DNA of 37,192 nucleotides, taken from positions 1 through 37,192 of the IMG/VR virus record IMGVR_UViG_3300024518_000977. One strand, written 5' to 3'. A program made the position numbers and the translations under genes. Origin of the DNA: a virus. Positions 15,137-37,192 of this stretch are shown here, one piece after another. The notes beneath the pieces were generated by a model that saw only the letters and a program-made list of their open reading frames with translations, did no database searches and had not been told where the DNA came from. Positions within the stretch are counted from its first letter, which is position 1. Every line of letters begins with the position of its first letter.

Positions 15137-16849
15137 ATGCCTCAGTTACCAACTTACGATTCTCAAGCAAGTTACAGCACCCAGTCAGTCGGTCCTCGCA
15201 TGGATCGCTCAGGTGTTAAAGCTCTGGGAGCTATGGCGACATTCGGCGAATCTGTATCCAAGATTGCAGATCAGTGGCTAAAAGCAGAAGTCACCGGCCA
15301 GTACACAACTGCTAAGAACAGCAGAGATCTACAGATGATGCAGCTCATGGAAGATGCTGAGAACGAAGTCGACCATACAAAGAAGCAAGACTACATTGAT
15401 CGAATCGAAGCAATCAGAAAGCAAGAAGTAACAATCAATGATGTTGATGTTCAGGCTCAATACGATTCTGAGAAAGAATTCTCTTTAAGCAAAGCATCTA
15501 TTGAAATTAACTCGGCCTTTAGGCAAAAGGGGATTGTGCATCAACGTGGTCAAATTGTCGTAGACGGTAAGGCGACCAAGAAAAATTATCTGAATTCAAG
15601 GATGCAGGGAGAAAGAGACTTTCATACGCACCAGTGGAAAAACAGACTTGAATCATATAGGGACACTGGGTTTATAACAGAGGCAGAATACCAGTCTGAG
15701 CTTGAGGGAATGGCCGAATGGGAATATGACAGGGCTATGGGCGACATCGGGAAAAGCCCCTCCCTGTTTGCTCAGAGGGTGGCAGCCGGAGAGTACAGTC
15801 TTGGAGAGAAGGACCTTAACGAACTTTCAAATATCGCCACGGCCTCGGCAAAAAGACAAGACAAGATTAAAAAGATCACTCAACTGGAAACCCATGTCCA
15901 GAACGAGGGCCGATCCCTTTATGGATATGTCGATGAAGATAACGTATATCATCATGGAATTGTCAACGATCCAAATATGCCAATGTCTGAGAAGCTCAAG
16001 AAACTCAGGCTCTCGGCTCTGGAAGGAACCATATCTAAAGAATTCTCAAGGGAAGCTATTTCCTATCTAACATCCGAGGAGGAGGCAGCAAGCAACTCTT
16101 CGTCTGAGAAAGTAGCTATGATCGTCAGGCTAATGTACCAAGCCAATGAAGCCAAAGAAGATGGTGGCCACGCTATGTCGTATCTTGAGAAGGTCAAGAA
16201 GATTCAGTTAATGATCGCAGATAAAAGGTCACAACTAACGGAGAAAGACCGCATTAGATTGCAGAAAGAGCTGAACACCATCACCAAGAAAAAAGGTGGC
16301 GAAGCTATTCAAGATGTTAAAAGGGCAACCGTCAAAGGGACCAGACAAAAACTGTATCAAAGTGCCATTGACCATTTTGAAAATTCTCTCGACACCCATT
16401 TAAGAGACGAGGCGTTCATGCAATACTGGAATCTCCTTAATGAAATTGAGGACGATAAAACCCATCCAGACCATGAATCTTTGAAGACCCCAGAGGGTAA
16501 ACTTAAAATCGCTCGGCGGGTCGAGTTTCGCATTAAGAGCGAGAATAATAAGAGGGTTATGAAAAAACTTGACGATTACGATAGCGTCAGGGAGAGAGTT
16601 GCCAAGGAAAGACCTGAGCTTGATATTCATTTAGAACAAACCGAAGACGGCGAGTTTATTTATGGAGCATACGACAAAGAGACTGGCAAGAGAATTGGCG
16701 AGTGGGAAGAAGACAGAGAAGGTGATGCGGGAACAAAGAAGACACCTCCATCAAAAGAATCTAAGCCAAAGATACAAGACGGCTATGGCCAGCGGGACGA
16801 AGGCGACAATCCGTATGGAGGAAGAGGCCGAAGAAGGAAGATTGAATAA
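15137..16849 (+). CDS. Internal virion (ejection) protein, middle, T7 gp15-like position
   Basis: 570 residues, ATG 15137 behind AAGGAGCG. It is almost entirely helical and highly charged, with no cysteine, no membrane helix and no lysozyme-like motif. It starts with a disordered LPTYDSQASYSTQSVGP segment, then GVKALGAMATFGESVSKIADQWLKAEV, a pattern common at the N-terminus of podovirus ejection proteins. The last 60 residues are Lys/Glu/Gly-rich. Its order (gp14-like, gp15-like, giant protein) mirrors T7-type ejectosome genes. The stop overlaps the next start (TAATG). Confidence 0.78.
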   Translation: MPQLPTYDSQASYSTQSVGPRMDRSGVKALGAMATFGESVSKIADQWLKAEVTGQYTTAKNSRDLQMMQLMEDAENEVDHTKKQDYIDRIEAIRKQEVTINDVDVQAQYDSEKEFSLSKASIEINSAFRQKGIVHQRGQIVVDGKATKKNYLNSRMQGERDFHTHQWKNRLESYRDTGFITEAEYQSELEGMAEWEYDRAMGDIGKSPSLFAQRVAAGEYSLGEKDLNELSNIATASAKRQDKIKKITQLETHVQNEGRSLYGYVDEDNVYHHGIVNDPNMPMSEKLKKLRLSALEGTISKEFSREAISYLTSEEEAASNSSSEKVAMIVRLMYQANEAKEDGGHAMSYLEKVKKIQLMIADKRSQLTEKDRIRLQKELNTITKKKGGEAIQDVKRATVKGTRQKLYQSAIDHFENSLDTHLRDEAFMQYWNLLNEIEDDKTHPDHESLKTPEGKLKIARRVEFRIKSENNKRVMKKLDDYDSVRERVAKERPELDIHLEQTEDGEFIYGAYDKETGKRIGEWEEDREGDAGTKKTPPSKESKPKIQDGYGQRDEGDNPYGGRGRRRKIE

Positions 16850-19800
16850 TGGGCGGCATTAACCCCGAAGGAAGAAAACCGGCTGACTTTGAAGAACCTG
16901 TACCAATCACTCAAGATGTTGCGTTGAAGCCTGTTGAACTTGCACCGAAAGAGACCAAGACCAAAAGCGGCGGCGTAAACCAAAACGGCAGAACCGGAGG
17001 ACGCCTAACCTCCAAAGCCATAGATTACTCTAAGATGGCTGCCGATGGTTTCACAGCCGCCACTGTCGAACAGGTGGAGAAGTGGAAAGATCTGGGAGAG
17101 ATCGGCCCTGTTGAGTATTACAAGAGGTACTACAAAGGGACCACCATTGTTCCATTCTTAAACGCCGAGCAAATTGCCGGTGACTATAAGATGTACGATC
17201 TAGCGCAAAAATATCACACCAATGATTACGGACCTGATGAGACAGCTCAAAAGACTAAGGACTATGAAACCCTTAAAGCATACCAACTTCTTCAAGAAGA
17301 ATTGATGGTTAGAGGAACGGCTGTTATGTCCGACATTGTTGAAGGTGGATCTCAGAGCGTGGCCCTAGCCGGAGAGTTTACCCTTGGTCTTGGAGTTGGT
17401 GGCGCTATGTTTAAGACTGGGGCCGTGGCCGCTAAAAAAGCTGCACAAGTTGGCGTGAAGATGATGATTAAAAAAGCTCTCGCTGGTGGAATTAGGAAAT
17501 CAATCGGGAGAGGCGCTAAAGGCTTAGGCAAAGCTGCTCTAAAAACTGCGGGATTCACAGCCGCAGTCACCCCGCACCGAGTATACGCTGGATACAAAGA
17601 AACCCAGCTTAACGATTACATGGTAGCAACCGACAAAGGGGCGCACATACTCGAAGAGATGGACAAGAATCCGACGATGGCAATGTTTCGAGCTTTTCAA
17701 GATGTTTGGATCGAGAACTTGGTGGAGGTCAGTGGCGGTAAATTGATAGGGTCCGTCACTGGGGCTACTAGAACATCAATAGCTCATAGGATGGCCCCCA
17801 AAACCGTAGAGGCCATGAAGAAGTTTATGGGCAAAACGAGGCTCGACAAACTGTTCGCCGTCGATCCGACAGACAGACGAAGAGTATTTAACGGATTTAT
17901 TGAGGAGTTAGGGGAGGAACGTATGGGCGCATTTATTCGCAACCATACTGGTCTTGAGGGCGAAGATCTTGAAGGCGCTACTCGGTGGGAGAAGACAGTC
18001 GGTGCTTTAATCCCAACATGGAGAGAATTTCTAGTTGAGGCTGGCGTTATAACAATGTTCGGAACGGCCTCAGTTTCAAAGAGGGCTTTGACGGAAAAGT
18101 GGAAACAGCGAGGCATGAGTGACACCGAGATCGAACTCCGTCACAAAGGTATGTCAGAGCTGGACATTGTTGGCGCTCTTAGCAAAGAGATTGAGAAAGA
18201 GGAAGCCAAAGGTAAGCTGGTTAATTCTGTTCGACTAGAGAAACTTAAAAAGGGTTTCAACACTAGCTACCAGAAACTATCCAATCGATTCGCTTCCATT
18301 GAGAATTTAAGCAAGTTAGCTAAGGATGCGGGAATAGAATTAAAAGAAGGCGATGATCCTCTTATCTTGGCAAGACAATACCTGAGTATTGGCCGGATGG
18401 TCAAAGCCACTCTTGAGCAAGGAACATACCGCATAAACAAAGACGGCTCAGTAGAAGAGACAGGCGAAGGCTTGAAGCCTATCCTCGATAGCTTTGATGT
18501 AGACACCTTGGACATAGAAGCAGACACCGACACCCGCCACCAAGATCTACAGGATTACATGATTGCCAGACGTTACCTTGAGGACCTTGTGCCTAGAGAA
18601 GACGTTGAAGTATCAGATGCCCAGAAGACAAAAGCTGTTGATGACATCTTTAGGATCGAGCAGAAGTACGGCGACAAACTGGCTAAACTTCAAGAGACAA
18701 CTGAAAGACTTTATGGTTTTCAGTCTAGGGTCCTAGAGAACTTGGTCGAATCTGGCCAGATGACCCAAGAGCAGTATGACAAAATCCTAAGCAACAATAA
18801 GCATTACATTCCTTTTGACAGAATCCTTCCAGAAGACGAAGGGTCCAGCGAGGCAGTTAAGAAGGCATTCACAAAGGCCAAGTCTCCCATCAAGAAGATC
18901 AAAGGCTCAGAGCTTGAGATTGAGAATATATACTCGTCTATGGTCAAGAACACCATCAACATCATGGAGAGGGCGCACCGTAATAAGGTGGCCAAGGCCG
19001 TAGCTCAGTTTGCAGACCTCCTCCCCTCTCAGGTCAGAGAGGTCGAATTACCTCAAGAATTCAAGGATTTAGAGGAAGCTGCCGATAGAGTAGAAGAGGG
19101 ATTTGACACAGATGGCGGTATAAAGGAGAATGGCAAGGATGACACACTCGAAACTGACACCGGAGGAAGAAGCGGAGGAAGAGAGAATATCTCTGGGCAG
19201 ATGGCAGTCACGCCATTTACGGAATCGCTCCAAGGCTCCCCAAAGTCAGACAGAGAATATTCCCAAGACATCAGACAGAACTCCCAAGAGTACGCCTCCG
19301 AAAACGGATTAGACCCGACACCCCTTAAAGAGTATGTCGTAGCCGAAGCAGAGCGTGGAACTAAGATCGCCGAAGAGTATGAGAACGGCGTCCACGATCC
19401 AAACAATCCAGAAGTTAAAGCAGCTTATGACGCTCTGATCCAAGAGACTTTGGCCCAGTATCAACACCTCAAGAAACTCGGTTACACCTTCGAGATGATT
19501 CCAGAAGGTCAGAACCCATATCCTAAAGGTCCAAGAGAAGCCTTAGCGGATATGAGGGACAACAAACATCTATGGGTTTACCCATCCGATTCAGGATTCG
19601 GAACTGAAACCGATGGAACCGGACACCCGCTACTTCAATCAACCGAGGAGTATATAGGCGACCACCAGCTACTTGCCAACGATGTATTCAGAATTGTCCA
19701 CGATGTCTATGGCCACGCTAAAGATGGCAATGGATTCGGTAAGAATGGCGAAGAGACAGCATTCCAGAACCATGTGAGGATGTACTCCCCACTGGCTGCC

Positions 19801-22800
19801 AGAGCTATGGCAACTGAAACAAGAGGTCAGAACTCTTGGGTAAACTTTGGACCTCAAGCTGAACACAACAGGGCCAACCCAGCAGAGACCATCTACGCCG
19901 AGCAAAAGGCTTTCTTAATGCCTGAGTGGGTGATGACCGAAAACCTTAAAGGTAAAAGCAGCTTTGAGATTAAAGATGGGATTATATATAAAACCGTAGC
20001 CAATCAGACATTCGCTATCACAGAGCAACTTCCAACAGAAAAGATTGCTGGACCCCTAGACGAATATGTTTGGATTGATCCAAAGATGAGCGCAGAACAC
20101 AAGGCCATCGCACAAGCCTATGTATCGTATGGAAACAAGCATTACGCAGAACTAGAAAAAGCATACATTGAGCGTATTAAAATTGAGTTCAATGGGGCCG
20201 ACAACGTGGCATCTGGAGACGAAGCCAAGTTTGTATTCCCAGCCGTTAGTGATGGCAACTCTGGATTGATGGCTATAGTCCACCCAGCCGCTTCGGCTAT
20301 GGCTAAGAAATATAACGATAAGTTATTAGATGACCCAGCAAGGGCGCACTTGCCGACAATGATTCTAGGCGGTGGATCTGGAGCCGGTAAGACGTTCAGC
20401 TTGAACAGGGCCGATACTGTAGACCTTTCCGATTACTCTGTTATTGTGGACACGAACTCGGATTCTCTGGATGTTGTGAGACTTCGCTACAATAAGATTA
20501 AAGAGAAGCACCCAGACAGGCCAGTGGCCTTCAACTACGTTGAGCGTGACCCTATTGAGGCTTTCGGAGCTGGCATAGATCCAAAAGATAAAACAGGTAG
20601 CGTTATCTCCAGAGCAATACGAACTGGCAGACCGATCCCGATGGATCTTCACATTAAGCTGCAAGATTCACGCCAAGTAGCCAGAGACATTCATAAAGAA
20701 TTCGCCAAGGAAATAGCTAGTGGAGATTTTGTCCTTATTATTTCTAGCAATGTGACAGGCAGCCAGAAGGCTATAAACCACGAATCAACTTTAGAAGATT
20801 TGAAAATAGCTCACGATTTGTTACTGGACCTTGATTACACACAGTCCACGCCAGAAGGCAAGGCTTTACTAAGAACTAAGTTAGAGGAGGTATTAAATGA
20901 GTGGAGAAAAAGCGGAAGGGTCGGACAAGAACTCGCAGCAGATCTCAATTTCCGAGGCCAAAGCGAAGCAGTTAAAAAAGATCGAGAACTTTCACAAGAA
21001 ACTAGCCAAGAAGATGGGCTGGAAGATTCTGTAAGACCAGTCCCAAGACATCACAACGAAATAATAAAGAAGATGCACCTTGATTCAGAGGGCCACCTTG
21101 ATAATAAAAAAGTTAGGGAAGAGATCTCTAATGAGGCCGAATATTGGGATGAAAAAGATATACCCTTAGACCAGATTAAAATTGGTGATGAAGCTATAGA
21201 TCCGTCAATGGCCAAGCCCGAAAAGGGGTCCATCATTCTTAAAGCCGATGGCACAATTATCGACGGAAGGCATCGGGTAGCTTTAGCCAGACAGAATGGA
21301 GATACCACCATTCGAGCCTTCGTGCCAACCACTCAAACAAAGGGGCAATCATCAAAAACTCAAGAACAGGGATCAGCCGGTTTCGGCGTAAAATCTGTAA
21401 AAGGAAAAATGCAGCCCATCCAACTGACCGCCGAGGAATCGGGTCAGGAAGGTGGCAAAACAATATTCCGGCCATCCCAGTATATGCCCAAAGGCAATGT
21501 CATCGAATACTACGAAGACGGCAAGCGCAAGTTCATTGAGGTAGAGAACGATCTTTACGAGGCCATGACCGGCATGAATGAGGTCCCCCTGTCTTTATGG
21601 GTTAGGATATTATCTGCGCCAGCCCAAGCCCTGAGAATTGGTGCGACAATCACCCCAGACTTTATGATGTCCAACTTTATTCGTGACCAGTTCACCGCAG
21701 CCATCCAGACCGATTTCGGCTTTAGGCCATTCATTGATTCAGCCGGAGCGATTGCCGATGTGATGGGCAAGTCTGACGTATACCTAGAATGGATCAGAGC
21801 CGGTGGTGGCTACTCTGGATTGGTGGAGACATCAAGAAAGAGCGTGGACCAAGCCTACAAAGAATTGACAGGCAGACCCAGCCTACTCAAAAAGCTGAAC
21901 ATCATTTCACACCTCGGAGATTTCTCACAGGTATTTGAGGAGGCCACAAGAGTAGGGATGTTCAAAGCGGCCAAGCGCAAAGGATACAGCGCAGCCAGAG
22001 CAGCCTACGAGAGCCGTGAAGGGACCCTAGACTTTTCTGTTAGAGGATCTACCACTAAAGAAATCAACGCCGCCAAGGCTTTCTTCAACGCACAGATAAG
22101 GGGCTTTGATAAGCTAGTATCCACATTTAAAAAGAACCCAGCCGGAACCACGGTCAAGGGCCTTGCCTACATCACCACTCCCACCGTTCTCCTCTTTATG
22201 ATTAACAAAGATGACGAGGATTATTGGGAGCTGCCACAATGGCGGCGTGATCTGTTCTGGAACATCAAGGCTCCTATGCCCACAGCTATTGGATACGCTT
22301 GGGTTTCCATTCCTAAGCCATTCGGGCTAGGACAGATTTTCGGCACGATCCCTGAGAGGTTTATGCAACACGCTTTTAAGGACGATCCATCTGCCTTTGA
22401 CAATCTCATAGAGAGTACATACAGCAGCATATCACCTCTGGCGTCTACGGATGTCGTCTTGCCTACTGCCTTTGTGCCAGTGATGGAATCATTCCATAAC
22501 AAGAATTTCTTTACTGGTAGAGACATTGTGCCGGAGTACAAGAAGGACCTTGATCCCTTTATGCAATATAACAAAGGGACCTCAACGACAGCCAAGGAGC
22601 TTGGCAGAGTGCTGGGACTTTCTCCGGCCCACCTTGAGAACACTGTCAGGGGATACTTGGGATCTGCCGGAAGATATACACTGGAAGGATCAGACTTCTT
22701 GGTGAATGGGATTAAACGATCAAATGGAGAAGATGTTGTAGAGAAGCCCACCGATGTTACAGATTTACCATTCGTGAGAAGGTTTATCAGGGATGATGCC

Positions 22801-23133
22801 TATGGCTACCAATCCGAGAGCGTCAGGAAATTCTTTGACATTGCCGACGAAGTTGGGGCCAAGCATAAAACTTTATCGGCTTTGAAGAAAAATAAGGAGT
22901 GGGACCGCTATAATGAATATAGAGAACAGCATCAAGAAGAACTGTCTATGTATAAGTTTATAAGCAGAAAAAGACGGCAGATTGTTAGACATGGAAGCAA
23001 CATTGATCGAATCATTGCCTCAGACATGATTGACGAAGAGAAGCTGTCTCAGATTAAAAATGAAGAGATTGCCATGACAGAACTGGCTAGGCAATCAGTA
23101 GACCAATATGAATCATCAGGAGAAGACGAATGA
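16849..23133 (+). CDS. Giant ejection protein with inserted polyvalent/effector domains
   Basis: 2,094 residues, in the position of T7 gp16. The backbone is LPD38-like: residues about 80-735, and from F1540 (FRPSQYMPKGNV) on, with ITPDFMMSNFIRDQFTAAIQ near 1600. Ala/Gly-rich hydrophobic stretches near 165-200 may insert in membranes. Between about 735 and 1535 lies an insert with three recognisable units. First is a region with HDVYGHAKDG (H951, H956) and TETRGQNSWVNFGP, known from phage polyvalent proteins. Second is a zeta-toxin-like P-loop kinase with Walker A GGGSGAGKT at 1174-1182 and a downstream TGRPIPMDLHI. Third is a ParB/sulfiredoxin-like unit with DGRHRVALARQNGDTTIRAF at 1472-1491. 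Polyvalent proteins are injected with phage DNA and carry several activities; action inside the new host is inferred. The stop overlaps the tail-fibre start (ATGA). Confidence 0.85.
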   Translation: MGGINPEGRKPADFEEPVPITQDVALKPVELAPKETKTKSGGVNQNGRTGGRLTSKAIDYSKMAADGFTAATVEQVEKWKDLGEIGPVEYYKRYYKGTTIVPFLNAEQIAGDYKMYDLAQKYHTNDYGPDETAQKTKDYETLKAYQLLQEELMVRGTAVMSDIVEGGSQSVALAGEFTLGLGVGGAMFKTGAVAAKKAAQVGVKMMIKKALAGGIRKSIGRGAKGLGKAALKTAGFTAAVTPHRVYAGYKETQLNDYMVATDKGAHILEEMDKNPTMAMFRAFQDVWIENLVEVSGGKLIGSVTGATRTSIAHRMAPKTVEAMKKFMGKTRLDKLFAVDPTDRRRVFNGFIEELGEERMGAFIRNHTGLEGEDLEGATRWEKTVGALIPTWREFLVEAGVITMFGTASVSKRALTEKWKQRGMSDTEIELRHKGMSELDIVGALSKEIEKEEAKGKLVNSVRLEKLKKGFNTSYQKLSNRFASIENLSKLAKDAGIELKEGDDPLILARQYLSIGRMVKATLEQGTYRINKDGSVEETGEGLKPILDSFDVDTLDIEADTDTRHQDLQDYMIARRYLEDLVPREDVEVSDAQKTKAVDDIFRIEQKYGDKLAKLQETTERLYGFQSRVLENLVESGQMTQEQYDKILSNNKHYIPFDRILPEDEGSSEAVKKAFTKAKSPIKKIKGSELEIENIYSSMVKNTINIMERAHRNKVAKAVAQFADLLPSQVREVELPQEFKDLEEAADRVEEGFDTDGGIKENGKDDTLETDTGGRSGGRENISGQMAVTPFTESLQGSPKSDREYSQDIRQNSQEYASENGLDPTPLKEYVVAEAERGTKIAEEYENGVHDPNNPEVKAAYDALIQETLAQYQHLKKLGYTFEMIPEGQNPYPKGPREALADMRDNKHLWVYPSDSGFGTETDGTGHPLLQSTEEYIGDHQLLANDVFRIVHDVYGHAKDGNGFGKNGEETAFQNHVRMYSPLAARAMATETRGQNSWVNFGPQAEHNRANPAETIYAEQKAFLMPEWVMTENLKGKSSFEIKDGIIYKTVANQTFAITEQLPTEKIAGPLDEYVWIDPKMSAEHKAIAQAYVSYGNKHYAELEKAYIERIKIEFNGADNVASGDEAKFVFPAVSDGNSGLMAIVHPAASAMAKKYNDKLLDDPARAHLPTMILGGGSGAGKTFSLNRADTVDLSDYSVIVDTNSDSLDVVRLRYNKIKEKHPDRPVAFNYVERDPIEAFGAGIDPKDKTGSVISRAIRTGRPIPMDLHIKLQDSRQVARDIHKEFAKEIASGDFVLIISSNVTGSQKAINHESTLEDLKIAHDLLLDLDYTQSTPEGKALLRTKLEEVLNEWRKSGRVGQELAADLNFRGQSEAVKKDRELSQETSQEDGLEDSVRPVPRHHNEIIKKMHLDSEGHLDNKKVREEISNEAEYWDEKDIPLDQIKIGDEAIDPSMAKPEKGSIILKADGTIIDGRHRVALARQNGDTTIRAFVPTTQTKGQSSKTQEQGSAGFGVKSVKGKMQPIQLTAEESGQEGGKTIFRPSQYMPKGNVIEYYEDGKRKFIEVENDLYEAMTGMNEVPLSLWVRILSAPAQALRIGATITPDFMMSNFIRDQFTAAIQTDFGFRPFIDSAGAIADVMGKSDVYLEWIRAGGGYSGLVETSRKSVDQAYKELTGRPSLLKKLNIISHLGDFSQVFEEATRVGMFKAAKRKGYSAARAAYESREGTLDFSVRGSTTKEINAAKAFFNAQIRGFDKLVSTFKKNPAGTTVKGLAYITTPTVLLFMINKDDEDYWELPQWRRDLFWNIKAPMPTAIGYAWVSIPKPFGLGQIFGTIPERFMQHAFKDDPSAFDNLIESTYSSISPLASTDVVLPTAFVPVMESFHNKNFFTGRDIVPEYKKDLDPFMQYNKGTSTTAKELGRVLGLSPAHLENTVRGYLGSAGRYTLEGSDFLVNGIKRSNGEDVVEKPTDVTDLPFVRRFIRDDAYGYQSESVRKFFDIADEVGAKHKTLSALKKNKEWDRYNEYREQHQEELSMYKFISRKRRQIVRHGSNIDRIIASDMIDEEKLSQIKNEEIAMTELARQSVDQYESSGEDE

Positions 23134-25231: not shown

Positions 25232-25609
25232 ATGTATAAAACAATCGCTATCCTTCTTATGGCTGTCTTCCTTATGGGAAACACAGGCTGTACGGAGCAA
25301 GAACTAGCAGACGCTCAGAAGAAACTAGACACAGCTCAGGGTGTTGCCACCACTGTCGGCACTACTATCCCAGTGACCCAGCCTTGGGCTACTATCGTGG
25401 CTGGAGTTCTAGGTATTGCCGGAACCATAGTTGGGGCCGTAAAGAGCAAGAAGCACAAATCAAGATCAGATAACTACAGCGAAGCTATTGAGATCGCCAT
25501 GATGGAAGGCGACGACAAGAAGGCTATTGATGTGGCCCATCTGGAGAAATCTTTAGATAAAGATACTAAAGCACATTTCAACGCCACCGGAGGCACGACC
25601 CTCAACTAA
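25232..25609 (+). CDS. Phage lipoprotein (spanin-like candidate, 125 aa)
   Basis: The N-terminus MYKTIAILLMAVFLMGNTGC is a lipoprotein-type signal with the lipidated cysteine at residue 20. Position -1 is Gly as expected, but -3 is Asn, which is atypical. A helical TEQELADAQKKLDTAQ segment follows, then a hydrophobic stretch at about 54-70 (ATIVAGVLGIAGTIVGAV) ending in KSKKHK, probably a membrane helix. Lipid anchor plus later membrane segment recalls single-gene u-spanins, which fuse inner and outer membranes at lysis, although u-spanin membrane segments normally lie at the very C-terminus. It is the last late gene before the terminator at 25662. The role is inferred. Confidence 0.7.
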   Translation: MYKTIAILLMAVFLMGNTGCTEQELADAQKKLDTAQGVATTVGTTIPVTQPWATIVAGVLGIAGTIVGAVKSKKHKSRSDNYSEAIEIAMMEGDDKKAIDVAHLEKSLDKDTKAHFNATGGTTLN

Positions 25610-25646: not shown

Positions 25647-25661
25647 TTTCTTCTTACACTG

Positions 25662-25692
25662 GGTCCAGCTGTCAAAGGCTGGGCCTTTTTTT
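25662..25692 (+). terminator. Rho-independent terminator of the late block
   Basis: GGTCCAGC-(8 nt)-GCTGGGCC (25662-25685) is an 8-bp stem with one T-G pair, followed by seven T residues at 25686-25692. It ends the rightward late transcript where the two blocks converge. The T-run touches the stop codon of the leftward receiver gene. On the minus strand the hairpin has no U-tract, so it mainly stops rightward transcription. Confidence 0.9.
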
Positions 25693-26107
25693 ATACTATC
25701 TTGCTGAGTAGGTCCGGCTCGTCCTTGCTTAAAAAACGGCCACCTAAAGATACTGCTTCATTGGCGAAGCGGGGATTATCATTCCCTGAGCAGACGACTA
25801 GATCATCGGTCCACTCTGTTAGATTCATTTCTTTGATAAGGTCGAAGCCATCAGCCCCACCAAAGGCTCCGGCTAGGTCTATGTCCATCAGGAGAATGTT
25901 CTTCCCATTCTCACGGACCGCCATCATCAGGTCCTCTTTATTGTAGATCCCTCGGACATTGACATTATCTGGTGCGGTTCTTTTTAGCTCGTCGATAAAG
26001 TCTCTATCGTCGTCGGCAACCCATAAAACTATTTTATCTGGCCTGTATCCCAGACCTTGCATCTGTTCTTTGATACCGGCGAGTATTGCTTTCATCGGGT
26101 CATCCAT
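25691..26107 (-). CDS. Stand-alone CheY-like response-regulator receiver domain
   Basis: With ATG 26107 (TGATG overlap with the upstream gene, GGAG ten bases before) it is 138 residues; the frame extends upstream to 26140 but that start ignores the coupling. The alternating hydrophobic-strand pattern and key residues fit a receiver: acidic cluster ADDD (Asp32-Asp34), phospho-acceptor Asp75 in ILLMDIDL, Ser107 in LVVCSGND, and Lys128 in RFLSKDE. Spacings Asp33-Asp75-Ser107-Lys128 (42, 32, 21) are close to CheY (44, 30, 22). No output domain follows, so it may act by protein binding, as CheY or Spo0F do. It is the last gene of the long leftward operon, directly after a membrane coiled-coil protein. 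Phage-encoded single receivers are unusual. No kinase gene is seen, so a host kinase or acetyl phosphate would have to supply the phosphate. Confidence 0.82.
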   Translation of the reverse strand: MDDPMKAILAGIKEQMQGLGYRPDKIVLWVADDDRDFIDELKRTAPDNVNVRGIYNKEDLMMAVRENGKNILLMDIDLAGAFGGADGFDLIKEMNLTEWTDDLVVCSGNDNPRFANEAVSLGGRFLSKDEPDLLSKIV

Positions 26108-26613
26108 CAACCAGCTCCTAGCATTTTGTTGACAGCCCAAGTTAAAACAGCTCCAGCCGCCACTATAAATAAACCATACATCATTATAGTCTTTGTTGAC
26201 GTTCCCTTGTTGTCAACCCGCATTTCTCCCACTTCATCATCTAGGGAGTTGTGTTTATTTTCCAGATCTGATATTTGATTTCGGGTCACAATCGCCGTCT
26301 GTGCAATGTTATCCCTTAGAATATTCATCTGTTCTGCCAGATTGACACTGTGTTTTATTGATTCAGATTCGATCTTTGAGTAGAGCTTGGTGGCTTCCTC
26401 TGTGAGCTTCTGTCCCATCCTCTCTCTGCCCTGAACTCCCTTTTCGATCACATCGTCAAGGACATCACGGATCTCTTTCTCAAGCTCTCTAACAGCTTTT
26501 GAGAGGTCTTCTTTAGTGACCCTGTTAAGCATCTTCTCGTCCATCACGGCGATACTGGCCAAGAGCTGATTAAGCAAAGTCATCAACTTCTCAAGACGTT
26601 CCTCGACTGTCAC
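26107..26613 (-). CDS. Coiled-coil protein with C-terminal membrane anchor (168 aa)
   Basis: The start is GTG 26613 with AGAGGAG upstream. Residues 1-130 are amphipathic, charged helix (coiled coil); residues 143-162 (IMMYGLFIVAAGAVLTWAVN) form one membrane helix. The topology would be a large cytoplasmic coiled-coil domain with a C-terminal anchor, or the reverse. It lacks kinase (H-box, ATP-binding), HAMP and chemoreceptor hairpin signatures. Translation is coupled to the receiver gene (TGATG), so the two proteins probably act together. Alternatives are a holin-related or membrane-scaffold protein. No family is recognised. Confidence 0.72.
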   Translation of the reverse strand: MTVEERLEKLMTLLNQLLASIAVMDEKMLNRVTKEDLSKAVRELEKEIRDVLDDVIEKGVQGRERMGQKLTEEATKLYSKIESESIKHSVNLAEQMNILRDNIAQTAIVTRNQISDLENKHNSLDDEVGEMRVDNKGTSTKTIMMYGLFIVAAGAVLTWAVNKMLGAG

Positions 26614-26651
26614 TTCAATCTCCTCTCACGGAACTGCTTAATATACCAGAT

Positions 26652-26993
26652 CTAAGATCTAGCCCACTCTCTTGTGTTCACTTCTTCGGCGGCTCTGGCC
26701 TTCTGAATTTGCTCATCTGCCAGCCAGCGGCCCTCTTCGTTCTGGATTTTCTGGCGGGTACGACGAATTGATTCAGGCGAAGGAAGGTCGTGCATGGACG
26801 ATCTCTCGGACATCTTCATCCATATTGGAACCTCTTCGTCTAAAGACTTCATTGACCGCATCAAGAAGTCGATATATTGGTTACGATGATAGTTTTTCCA
26901 AACAGACATAATCAAATACATATCGCAGTCTCTTGTGGCTGGTCGGTGTTCGAGACACCACTCCACTTGTTTCTTCGTTGTCTTCATATCCAT
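26652..26993 (-). CDS. Conserved-type phage protein with SPESIRRTRQKIQ motif (113 aa)
   Basis: The ATG overlaps the NinG-like stop (TAATG), with AGAGGA ten bases upstream. The N-terminal half is helical and holds LEHRPATRDCDMYLIMSVW; the C-terminal half has LPSPESIRRTRQKIQNEEGRWL. That last motif (ESIxRxRxxIQ) recurs in small phage proteins near recombination genes, usually annotated only as hypothetical. Basic residues in this helix may contact nucleic acid; this is a guess. It is in an operon with NinG, RecT and YqaJ, pointing to DNA metabolism. Confidence 0.68.
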   Translation of the reverse strand: MDMKTTKKQVEWCLEHRPATRDCDMYLIMSVWKNYHRNQYIDFLMRSMKSLDEEVPIWMKMSERSSMHDLPSPESIRRTRQKIQNEEGRWLADEQIQKARAAEEVNTREWARS

Positions 26994-27406
26994 TACAGTC
27001 CTCTTGCTTTCTTCATAGCTCTTGATTCTTTACGGTACATCTTCGCCATCTCATCGAACTCAAAGTCGTGGATCTTGGTGAAGCCGGACCTCTTCTTATC
27101 TAAAATTTCTATAACGTCATCCCCCCACTTAGCCTTCAAGCCGATGAGGTATCCAGCGGCATTTCCTTGGAGGTATGTATTGCAATGAGCGCATTGACCA
27201 TTGACGTTTCTCTCATCAAAATACAGAGAGTTGTATGTGACAGACCTTGGATAGTAGTGGCCAGCATGGAGCTTGCCTGTATCATTCGGATAGGTGACGA
27301 GGCGGCCACAAGATATGCACTTGCAGTACCCCCCCTCGGAATCCCTCAGTCTGATGTATTCAGCGAAGGCCCTCCAGCATTTACTTTTAGAGCTGGCTTT
27401 GGGCAT
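26993..27406 (-). CDS. NinG/Rap-like recombination nuclease
   Basis: 137 residues. The Cys/His set CKCISCG (Cys28, Cys30, Cys33), HAGHYYPR (His47, His50) and NGQCAHCNTYLQGN (Cys72, Cys75) is that of the lambda NinG (Rap) family. These zinc-binding, HNH-related proteins act on Holliday and D-loop junctions. The LYFDERNVNGQC segment before the second Cys pair is characteristic. It is shorter than lambda NinG (about 200 residues), lacking part of the N-terminus. It is co-transcribed with RecT and YqaJ and would resolve recombination intermediates or concatemer branches. Confidence 0.87.
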   Translation of the reverse strand: MPKASSKSKCWRAFAEYIRLRDSEGGYCKCISCGRLVTYPNDTGKLHAGHYYPRSVTYNSLYFDERNVNGQCAHCNTYLQGNAAGYLIGLKAKWGDDVIEILDKKRSGFTKIHDFEFDEMAKMYRKESRAMKKARGL

Positions 27407-36716: not shown

Positions 36717-37146
36717 CCCATTCTTTACAGATGATGACGGCATAGATGGGCATGAAGCATCTCAGATGATGAAGTTTTACGACAAAGTTAGGCAACTCCC
36801 TAGAGGGATCGTTTACGGAGCATTGCACAAGTACATCACCATTGCTGATGCCAACCGCATGATCGAAAAACGAGGGATGTTAGTAGATAGTGTTAGTGCA
36901 TCATCATGGTATGAAGGGCGTACTACTGCTGGTGCAGAATATGAAGCCCTTGTAATCAACATCCAACCCATCGAACAAGAGCCTGAGTTGACAGAGCTTG
37001 AACAAGCAAACTACCTTCTAGGTCTAGCTCGTAATGTAGCTAAATGCTGGCTTATAGATGAGCCGAACATGATTCTCCCTCAAAAATTTTTAGATAGGAC
37101 ATCTTATTTAGAGGTAGGAGCAAACCTCAAGGACGGTGCAGAGTGA
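36709..37146 (+). CDS. Hypothetical protein (145 aa) downstream of the small terminase
   Basis: ATG 36709 is set by the GGAGAATCAGATGAGT junction and overlaps the upstream stop by 8 bp. The N-terminus is acidic (NPFFTDDDGIDGHEA); then YDKVRQLPRGIVYGALHKYI, a probable helix-turn-helix-sized helical part; and a C-terminus with LEQANYLLGLARNVAKCWL. The family is not recognised. It ends in the terminal repeat and continues as 3-188. Its place between terminase genes suggests late expression. Confidence 0.75.
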   Translation: MSNPFFTDDDGIDGHEASQMMKFYDKVRQLPRGIVYGALHKYITIADANRMIEKRGMLVDSVSASSWYEGRTTAGAEYEALVINIQPIEQEPELTELEQANYLLGLARNVAKCWLIDEPNMILPQKFLDRTSYLEVGANLKDGAE

Positions 37147-37192
37147 AGTGGTCAAGATGGTGGAGCATATTCTCAGAACCTTACACGTTCAC
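36959..37192. repeat. Terminal direct repeat, right copy
   Basis: Right-hand copy of the 234-bp repeat at 1-234. It holds the 3' end of the gene at 36709-37146 and the first 50 bases of the small membrane-protein gene that is complete at 185-346. Four substitutions separate the copies; two change residues (Thr/Lys and Ser/Asn) and two are silent. Confidence 0.93.

Follow-up and report, generated by a model that had tools for sequence, protein, structure and literature searches.

Two overlapping genes close a minus-strand recombination and replication operon (recE, recT, ninG) in the virus record IMGVR_UViG_3300024518_000977 from IMG/VR, a 37,192-bp record that is classed as linear and that we analyzed over its whole length (the window). 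The downstream gene encodes a stand-alone receiver-domain protein, P0001, and the upstream gene a coiled-coil protein, P0002, with a predicted membrane anchor. The features of the locus are as follows.

25691..26107, minus strand: receiver-domain protein P0001, 138 aa, stand-alone, matching PF00072
25883-25885, minus strand: codon of the predicted phospho-acceptor Asp75 of P0001
26107..26613, minus strand: coiled-coil protein P0002, 168 aa, with one C-terminal transmembrane helix (by hydropathy)
26131..26187, minus strand: predicted transmembrane helix of P0002, residues 143-161 (Kyte-Doolittle, window of 19)
26115..26119, minus strand: Shine-Dalgarno motif AGGAG, 7 nt 5' of the P0001 ATG and within the P0002 gene (read from the sequence)
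26620..26624, minus strand: Shine-Dalgarno motif AGGAG, 6 nt 5' of the P0002 GTG (read from the sequence)
25661..25686, plus strand: terminator-like hairpin followed by a T run (scan: 10 pairs, 6 of them GC, then TTTTTTTATAC)
26652..27406, minus strand: upstream genes of the same operon, encoding a 113-aa protein (phrog_24961) and a NinG-like nuclease (family matches)

An overlap between the start of P0001 and the stop of the coiled-coil gene had been noticed beforehand, and it is real: the P0001 ATG and the P0002 TGA have base 26107 in common (TGATG), which makes an overlap of 1 nt. The hairpin lies between the convergent late (plus-strand) and early-type (minus-strand) operons and terminates the late one, outside which the pair is situated.

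The record carries a direct terminal repeat of 234 nt (positions 1-234 and 36959-37192, 98% identical), and the junction of its two ends is bridged by a second contig (L002). Because of the repeats and of this bridging, we consider the record an essentially complete genome. By the similarity of its portal protein, the phage is a podovirus of the T7/epsilon15/HTVC010P-like type. The GC and GC3 contents of the P0001 and P0002 genes are near those of the other phage genes. A chimera or host contamination was considered as the source of P0001 and rejected, since the gene overlaps its neighbor, lies in mid-record, has phage-like GC and GC3 contents, and belongs to a record with terminal repeats.

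Elsewhere in the window, positions 16849-23133 encode a 2,094-aa polyvalent protein with an LPD38 domain. This protein had no match among the related phage contigs compared, and its C-terminal 610 aa gave no peptide-pattern match in IMG/VR. The late operon is closed by a gene at 25232-25609 for a 125-aa protein without family, which has a lipobox-like signal (LMGNTGC) and one more hydrophobic segment and is a candidate lysis gene. No holin or endolysin was recognized when the genes of the window, many of them without any family match, were scanned against Pfam and PHROGs.

A divergent receiver domain and its putative membrane partner

The profile search proposed for the 138-residue product placed it above the curated cutoff of the receiver family: residues 30-129 of P0001 matched positions 3-100 of the 111 in PF00072 with an E value of 4.2e-7 and a score of 30.6 bits, the gathering score being 30.2 bits. 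The CheY-type key residues named in the original prediction are all present (acidic D32-D34, D75, S107, and K128). Their spacings stay within two residues of those of CheY, as had also been claimed, with 42 residues for D33-D75 (44 in CheY), 32 for D75-S107 (30), and 21 for S107-K128 (22). The receiver spans residues 24-138 and is preceded by an N-terminal helix only, in agreement with the reported lack of an output domain. On the other hand, the loop that follows the phospho-Asp of P0001 is lengthened by a 4-residue insertion, the MP motif is missing there, and no Pro follows K128; we therefore regard the domain as divergent. Mainly by its profile score and residues, P0001 is a genuine but divergent receiver. 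The receiver profiles of PHROGs that were matched comprise 227-1030 positions and correspond in length to complete regulators or hybrid kinases.

Structure prediction agreed with this assignment to different degrees. From the single sequence, AlphaFold2 returned a model with a pLDDT of 63 and five successive beta-alpha elements in order, for which neither Foldseek nor VIA gave a receiver-like ranking. When three remote phage receivers were included in the alignment, the pLDDT was 62 and the order of elements was again correct. With this model, Foldseek placed receivers at each of its first nine ranks (probability 0.99-1.00, TM 0.53-0.59), and all 50 VIA rows were receivers, the best with a Z score of 9.9 and an rmsd of 2.5 over 109 residues. 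These matches are supportive and not independent, because the added alignment rows are themselves receivers.

Another family of divergent receivers occurs in phages, the cREC family (PF20274), described in jumbo phages (PMC7824862). As a member, P0001 would be an enzyme that acts on cyclic nucleotide or ADP-ribose signals when phage and host are in conflict. A weak match to PF20274 (E value of 0.013, 16.6 bits) points that way, but it stays below the family cutoff of 27 bits, the PF00072 match is better, and the gene neighborhood is different, with no NAD- or ADPr-processing gene recognized beside P0001. We consider this reading extremely improbable.

For the 168-residue product, a coiled coil with a C-terminal membrane helix had been predicted, and our analysis bears this out. 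Its hydropathy profile peaks at 2.07 at residue 143 with no second peak, so that there is a single hydrophobic helix (residues 143-161), and the rest of the protein is charged, helical, and coiled-coil-like. P0002 gave no match above noise in Pfam, PHROGs (phrog_937 included), or NCBIfam.

The absence of a histidine kinase, also part of the original prediction, extends to phosphotransfer proteins: searches of the whole record for HATPase_c, HisKA, and Hpt domains found none, with positive controls. The window record thus lacks the cognate kinase or phosphotransfer protein that would make up a complete two-component system. With no kinase of its own, the phage would depend for the phosphoryl group on a histidine kinase of the host or on a small phosphodonor such as acetyl phosphate. 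Two roles considered for P0002 itself were discarded: that of a phospho-site on one of its histidines, as neither Hpt nor HisKA matched, and that of a CheZ-like phosphatase, for which a helix with D-x-x-x-Q was noted and then dropped because the pattern is too common.

Receiver-only proteins of cells include regulators of the CheY, Spo0F, and DivK type, which act by protein-protein contact. They differ from P0001 in being cellular and having cognate kinases, whereas P0001 is devoid of the MP and KP motifs and carries the insertion described above. Stenotrophomonas phage Bhz63 resembles the window in having a response regulator near recombination genes (NinB and Holliday-junction resolvase). 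However, it encodes a complete system, with a full PhoP-like regulator and an overlapping sensor-kinase-like gene (L125:5001-6547).

Recurrence of the gene pair in Alteromonas phages

No orthologue of P0001 was found in IMG/VR (peptide pattern), INPHARED (E values up to 10), PLSDB plasmids, or GTDB (pattern), and none of P0002 in IMG/VR. The PF00072 match was likewise absent from 64 podovirus records related through the portal protein (0 of 24 and 0 of 40), most of which are fragments. The P0001 gene is therefore an accessory gene of the window lineage. Closer relatives sought through RecE and LPD38 were not found, and the 113-aa neighbor has its only relative in an unrelated phage that is without the receiver/coiled-coil pair. 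Two contigs (L121 and L123, ∼40.8 and 37.5 kb) from GTDB metagenome-assembled genomes assigned to Methanoperedens and Saccharibacteria bear a portal gene of the type of the window podovirus and are probably mis-binned phage genomes.

Phage receivers were also sought by searching INPHARED with Spo0F and CheY. Most matches were excluded as host DNA in unannotated or draft "phage" records. Stand-alone receivers were found in the Alteromonas phages H4/4 and R8W (autographiviruses), R9Y1-3 (siphoviruses by name), PB15, XX1924, PT11-V19, R22Y, V22 (myovirus), and A5 (schitovirus) and in the IMG/VR relatives of the R9Y phages (L132-L135). The H4/4 receiver is gp44, and those of PB15 and XX1924 are annotated as "response regulator." Ten of the genomes with such receivers (H4/4, R8W, R9Y2, L134, PB15, XX1924, PT11-V19, R22Y, V22, and A5) were compared for the layout of the locus. 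In all ten, a gene for a coiled-coil-like protein of 93-125 aa lies directly upstream of the stand-alone receiver gene (132-154 aa), at a distance of -11 to +2 nt that is exactly -4 nt in six. In PB15, the annotation omits 21 nt from the 5' end of the receiver gene (L130:3989-4009); a start at the ATG of L130:3989 restores both the 4-nt overlap with the coiled-coil gene and the first beta strand. Hydropathy indicates one membrane segment in 8 of the 10 coiled-coil proteins, the N-terminal hydrophobic stretch of those of V22 and A5 remaining below the threshold. The helix is N-terminal in H4/4, R8W, R9Y2, L134, PT11-V19, and R22Y and C-terminal in PB15, XX1924, and the window; the receivers of PB15, XX1924, and the window also have in common a Lys without a following Pro. 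Hence, the synteny that the original prediction proposed to look for was missing from the related podovirus records, mostly fragments, yet the same layout, in which a stand-alone receiver gene directly follows that of a membrane-anchored coiled coil, recurs in several unrelated groups of Alteromonas phages.

Both genes of the pair are conserved between phages of different families. The receivers of the autographivirus H4/4 and the siphovirus R9Y2 are 47% identical, and their coiled coils match with an E value of 5e-11; V22 and A5 share both pair genes, with 41% and 66% similarity (PMC10579305). Since both genes are homologous in H4/4 and R9Y2, and likewise in V22 and A5, they travel together across phage families. 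We also estimated how often a single membrane segment would occur by chance: 8 of 40 other annotated genes for proteins of 80-170 aa near these loci had exactly one. At this rate, finding it in at least four of five lineages (the window, H4/4-R9Y, PB15-XX1924, PT11-V19-R22Y, and V22-A5, the last counted as failing) has a p value of ∼0.007, which is post hoc and based on few cases. Independently of this value, support comes from the cotransfer of the two genes between families.

The relation of the window pair to the others is more distant. P0001 shares 19-24% identity with the Alteromonas phage receivers, which scored 63-83 bits with PF00072 where tested (29.9 for PT11-V19), versus 30.6 for P0001. 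With a small profile made of phage receivers, P0001 did not score above shuffled sequences, and hhalign and profile comparisons were nonsignificant for it. Because that profile cannot separate P0001 from shuffles, the window pair may not share its origin with the other pairs.

Most of the remote phage receivers keep the residues equivalent to Asp75 and Lys128. In PT11-V19 and R22Y (L129:3998-4450 and L138:2501-2965), the phospho-Asp and the Lys have been lost and the membrane coiled coil has been kept, which shows that not every pair depends on phosphorylation. Pseudo-receivers that lack the phosphorylation residues are known in bacteria, and the two phages would fit an adaptor that works independently of phosphorylation, its receiver fold capping or oligomerizing a membrane coiled coil that may serve as a holin-like, superinfection-exclusion, or structural protein. 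We regard such an adaptor as quite unlikely for the window pair, since P0001 and most other receivers, strongly divergent as they are, have retained all catalytic positions, and this retention would be difficult to account for if the positions were unused.

Published annotations offer a different role. R8W gp48 carries the annotation PhoB, which was discussed in terms of adaptation to scarce phosphate (PMC8228385), and V22 gp30 and A5 gp11 were called CheY-like class II auxiliary metabolic genes (AMGs) (PMC7289586, PMC10579305). These labels would make the proteins auxiliary metabolic regulators that act on host expression as PhoB-like transcription regulators or on motility as CheY-like chemotaxis effectors. 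However, none of them has a DNA-binding domain, all consist of a receiver only (132-154 aa), and this role would not explain why the receivers are so strictly tied to a membrane coiled coil and to lysis genes. We rate it as very unlikely. The product of R8W gp48 (L131:2501-2962) is itself receiver-only, without a DNA-binding domain, and its gene lies inside the holin-terminase interval.

Lysis-gene neighbors and a possible phospho-switch

The Alteromonas pairs, which like the window pair have a single receiver domain downstream of a membrane coiled coil and no kinase seen beside them, adjoin lysis genes. A class II holin gene is adjacent to the pair in H4/4 and R8W, and a GH108 endolysin gene overlaps the receiver gene in the R9Y phages. 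An M15 peptidase and GTA_holin_3TM adjoin the PB15 pair, DUF5675 proteins those of PT11-V19 and XX1924. In V22 and A5, Rz-like spanin genes overlap the 3' end of the receiver gene, and an annotated endolysin is found near the A5 pair. Moreover, the coiled coils of PB15 and XX1924 match the XhlA-type "hemolysin" family phrog_937 (E values of 1.8e-16 and 1.2e-12). XhlA and SPP1 gp24.1 have one C-terminal transmembrane helix and act together with another holin, and it was proposed that the late production of gp24.1 determines the pace of lysis (PMC6316719). P0002 shares this architecture of a coiled coil and one C-terminal transmembrane helix, and its C terminus resembles the XhlA-like coiled coils of PB15 and XX1924 marginally (hhalign E value of 0.0023, probability of 13%). 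It differs from XhlA in that it is longer, has no XhlA profile match, and has no recognized holin or endolysin gene adjacent to it. As the recurrent layout adjoins holins, endolysins, and spanins, we favor a role in lysis or at the membrane over a purely structural one.

The proposal that the pair taps a host phosphorelay for lysis or another membrane event is thus upheld in part. In its favor are the receiver, the lack of a phage kinase, the coupling to a coiled coil, and the recurrence beside lysis genes. The timing of lysis by the window pair itself fares less well, as no lysis gene was recognized in the window and the pair, in contrast to those of the Alteromonas phages, closes a minus-strand operon of early type.

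That operon would suit a receiver acting as a decoy or sink, which takes phosphoryl groups from a histidine kinase of the host, or binds to it, and thereby rewires host signaling, with P0002 as its membrane tether and no role in lysis. The absence of an output domain and of a phage kinase also agrees with this alternative, phage interference with host two-component systems exists (PIT4, PMC10714779), and all the other cases were found in phages of a single host genus, Alteromonas, as a host-specific target predicts. It accounts poorly for the lysis-gene neighbors elsewhere, for the match of PB15-type coiled coils to a holin-partner family, and for the persistence of pairs without the phospho-Asp, and we judge it unlikely.

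Our preferred explanation, held with somewhat less than even confidence, is that P0001 and P0002 form a two-gene phospho-switch module on the membrane, most likely related to lysis or to another envelope event. P0001 is a single-domain response regulator, and P0002 would be its membrane-anchored partner. A host histidine kinase or acetyl phosphate would charge Asp75, and phosphorylation may alter the output face of P0001 and hence how it docks on the coiled coil that P0002 exposes to the cytoplasm. The altered docking would in turn switch the effect of P0002 at the inner membrane. Judged by the recurrent pairs of the Alteromonas phages, that effect would most likely bear on lysis, with P0002 as an XhlA-like holin partner or brake, or else on another envelope event. 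In the relatives, the module would probably target the holin/endolysin step, and in the window either this step or an earlier membrane event. For the window phage, the phosphorylation, the binding between P0001 and P0002, and the role in lysis are inferred. A bolder version, which we put forward as doubtful, is that phages of several unrelated lineages carry a mobile two-gene switch, a stand-alone receiver with an XhlA-like membrane coiled-coil partner, which makes holin function, and with it the time of lysis, responsive to the phosphorelay of the host or to its acetyl-phosphate state, the window phage being a divergent carrier.

In the open-licence literature, we found no description of the pair of a receiver and a membrane coiled coil or of its position in lysis cassettes, nor papers on phage receivers with endolysins or on lysis timing with kinases. 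Within the literature searched, stand-alone phage receivers had been annotated before, and what is new is their pairing with a membrane coiled coil in lysis cassettes.

The timing of lysis is a central trait of phage biology. Input from the state of the host to this timing is known mainly through membrane energization, and quorum sensing contributes in a few temperate phages. The recurrence of the pair in lysis cassettes suggests that some phages wire host-type phosphate signaling into a membrane event. The idea can be tested at once, since pair-bearing phages are in culture (R8W, H4/4, R9Y1-3, PB15, XX1924, V22, and A5). If it is true, two-component signaling would have a direct route to lysis, or at least to a membrane event, in a receiver module that adjoins holins and endolysins, and auxiliary metabolic genes now labeled "PhoB" or "CheY-like" would become candidate regulators of lysis.
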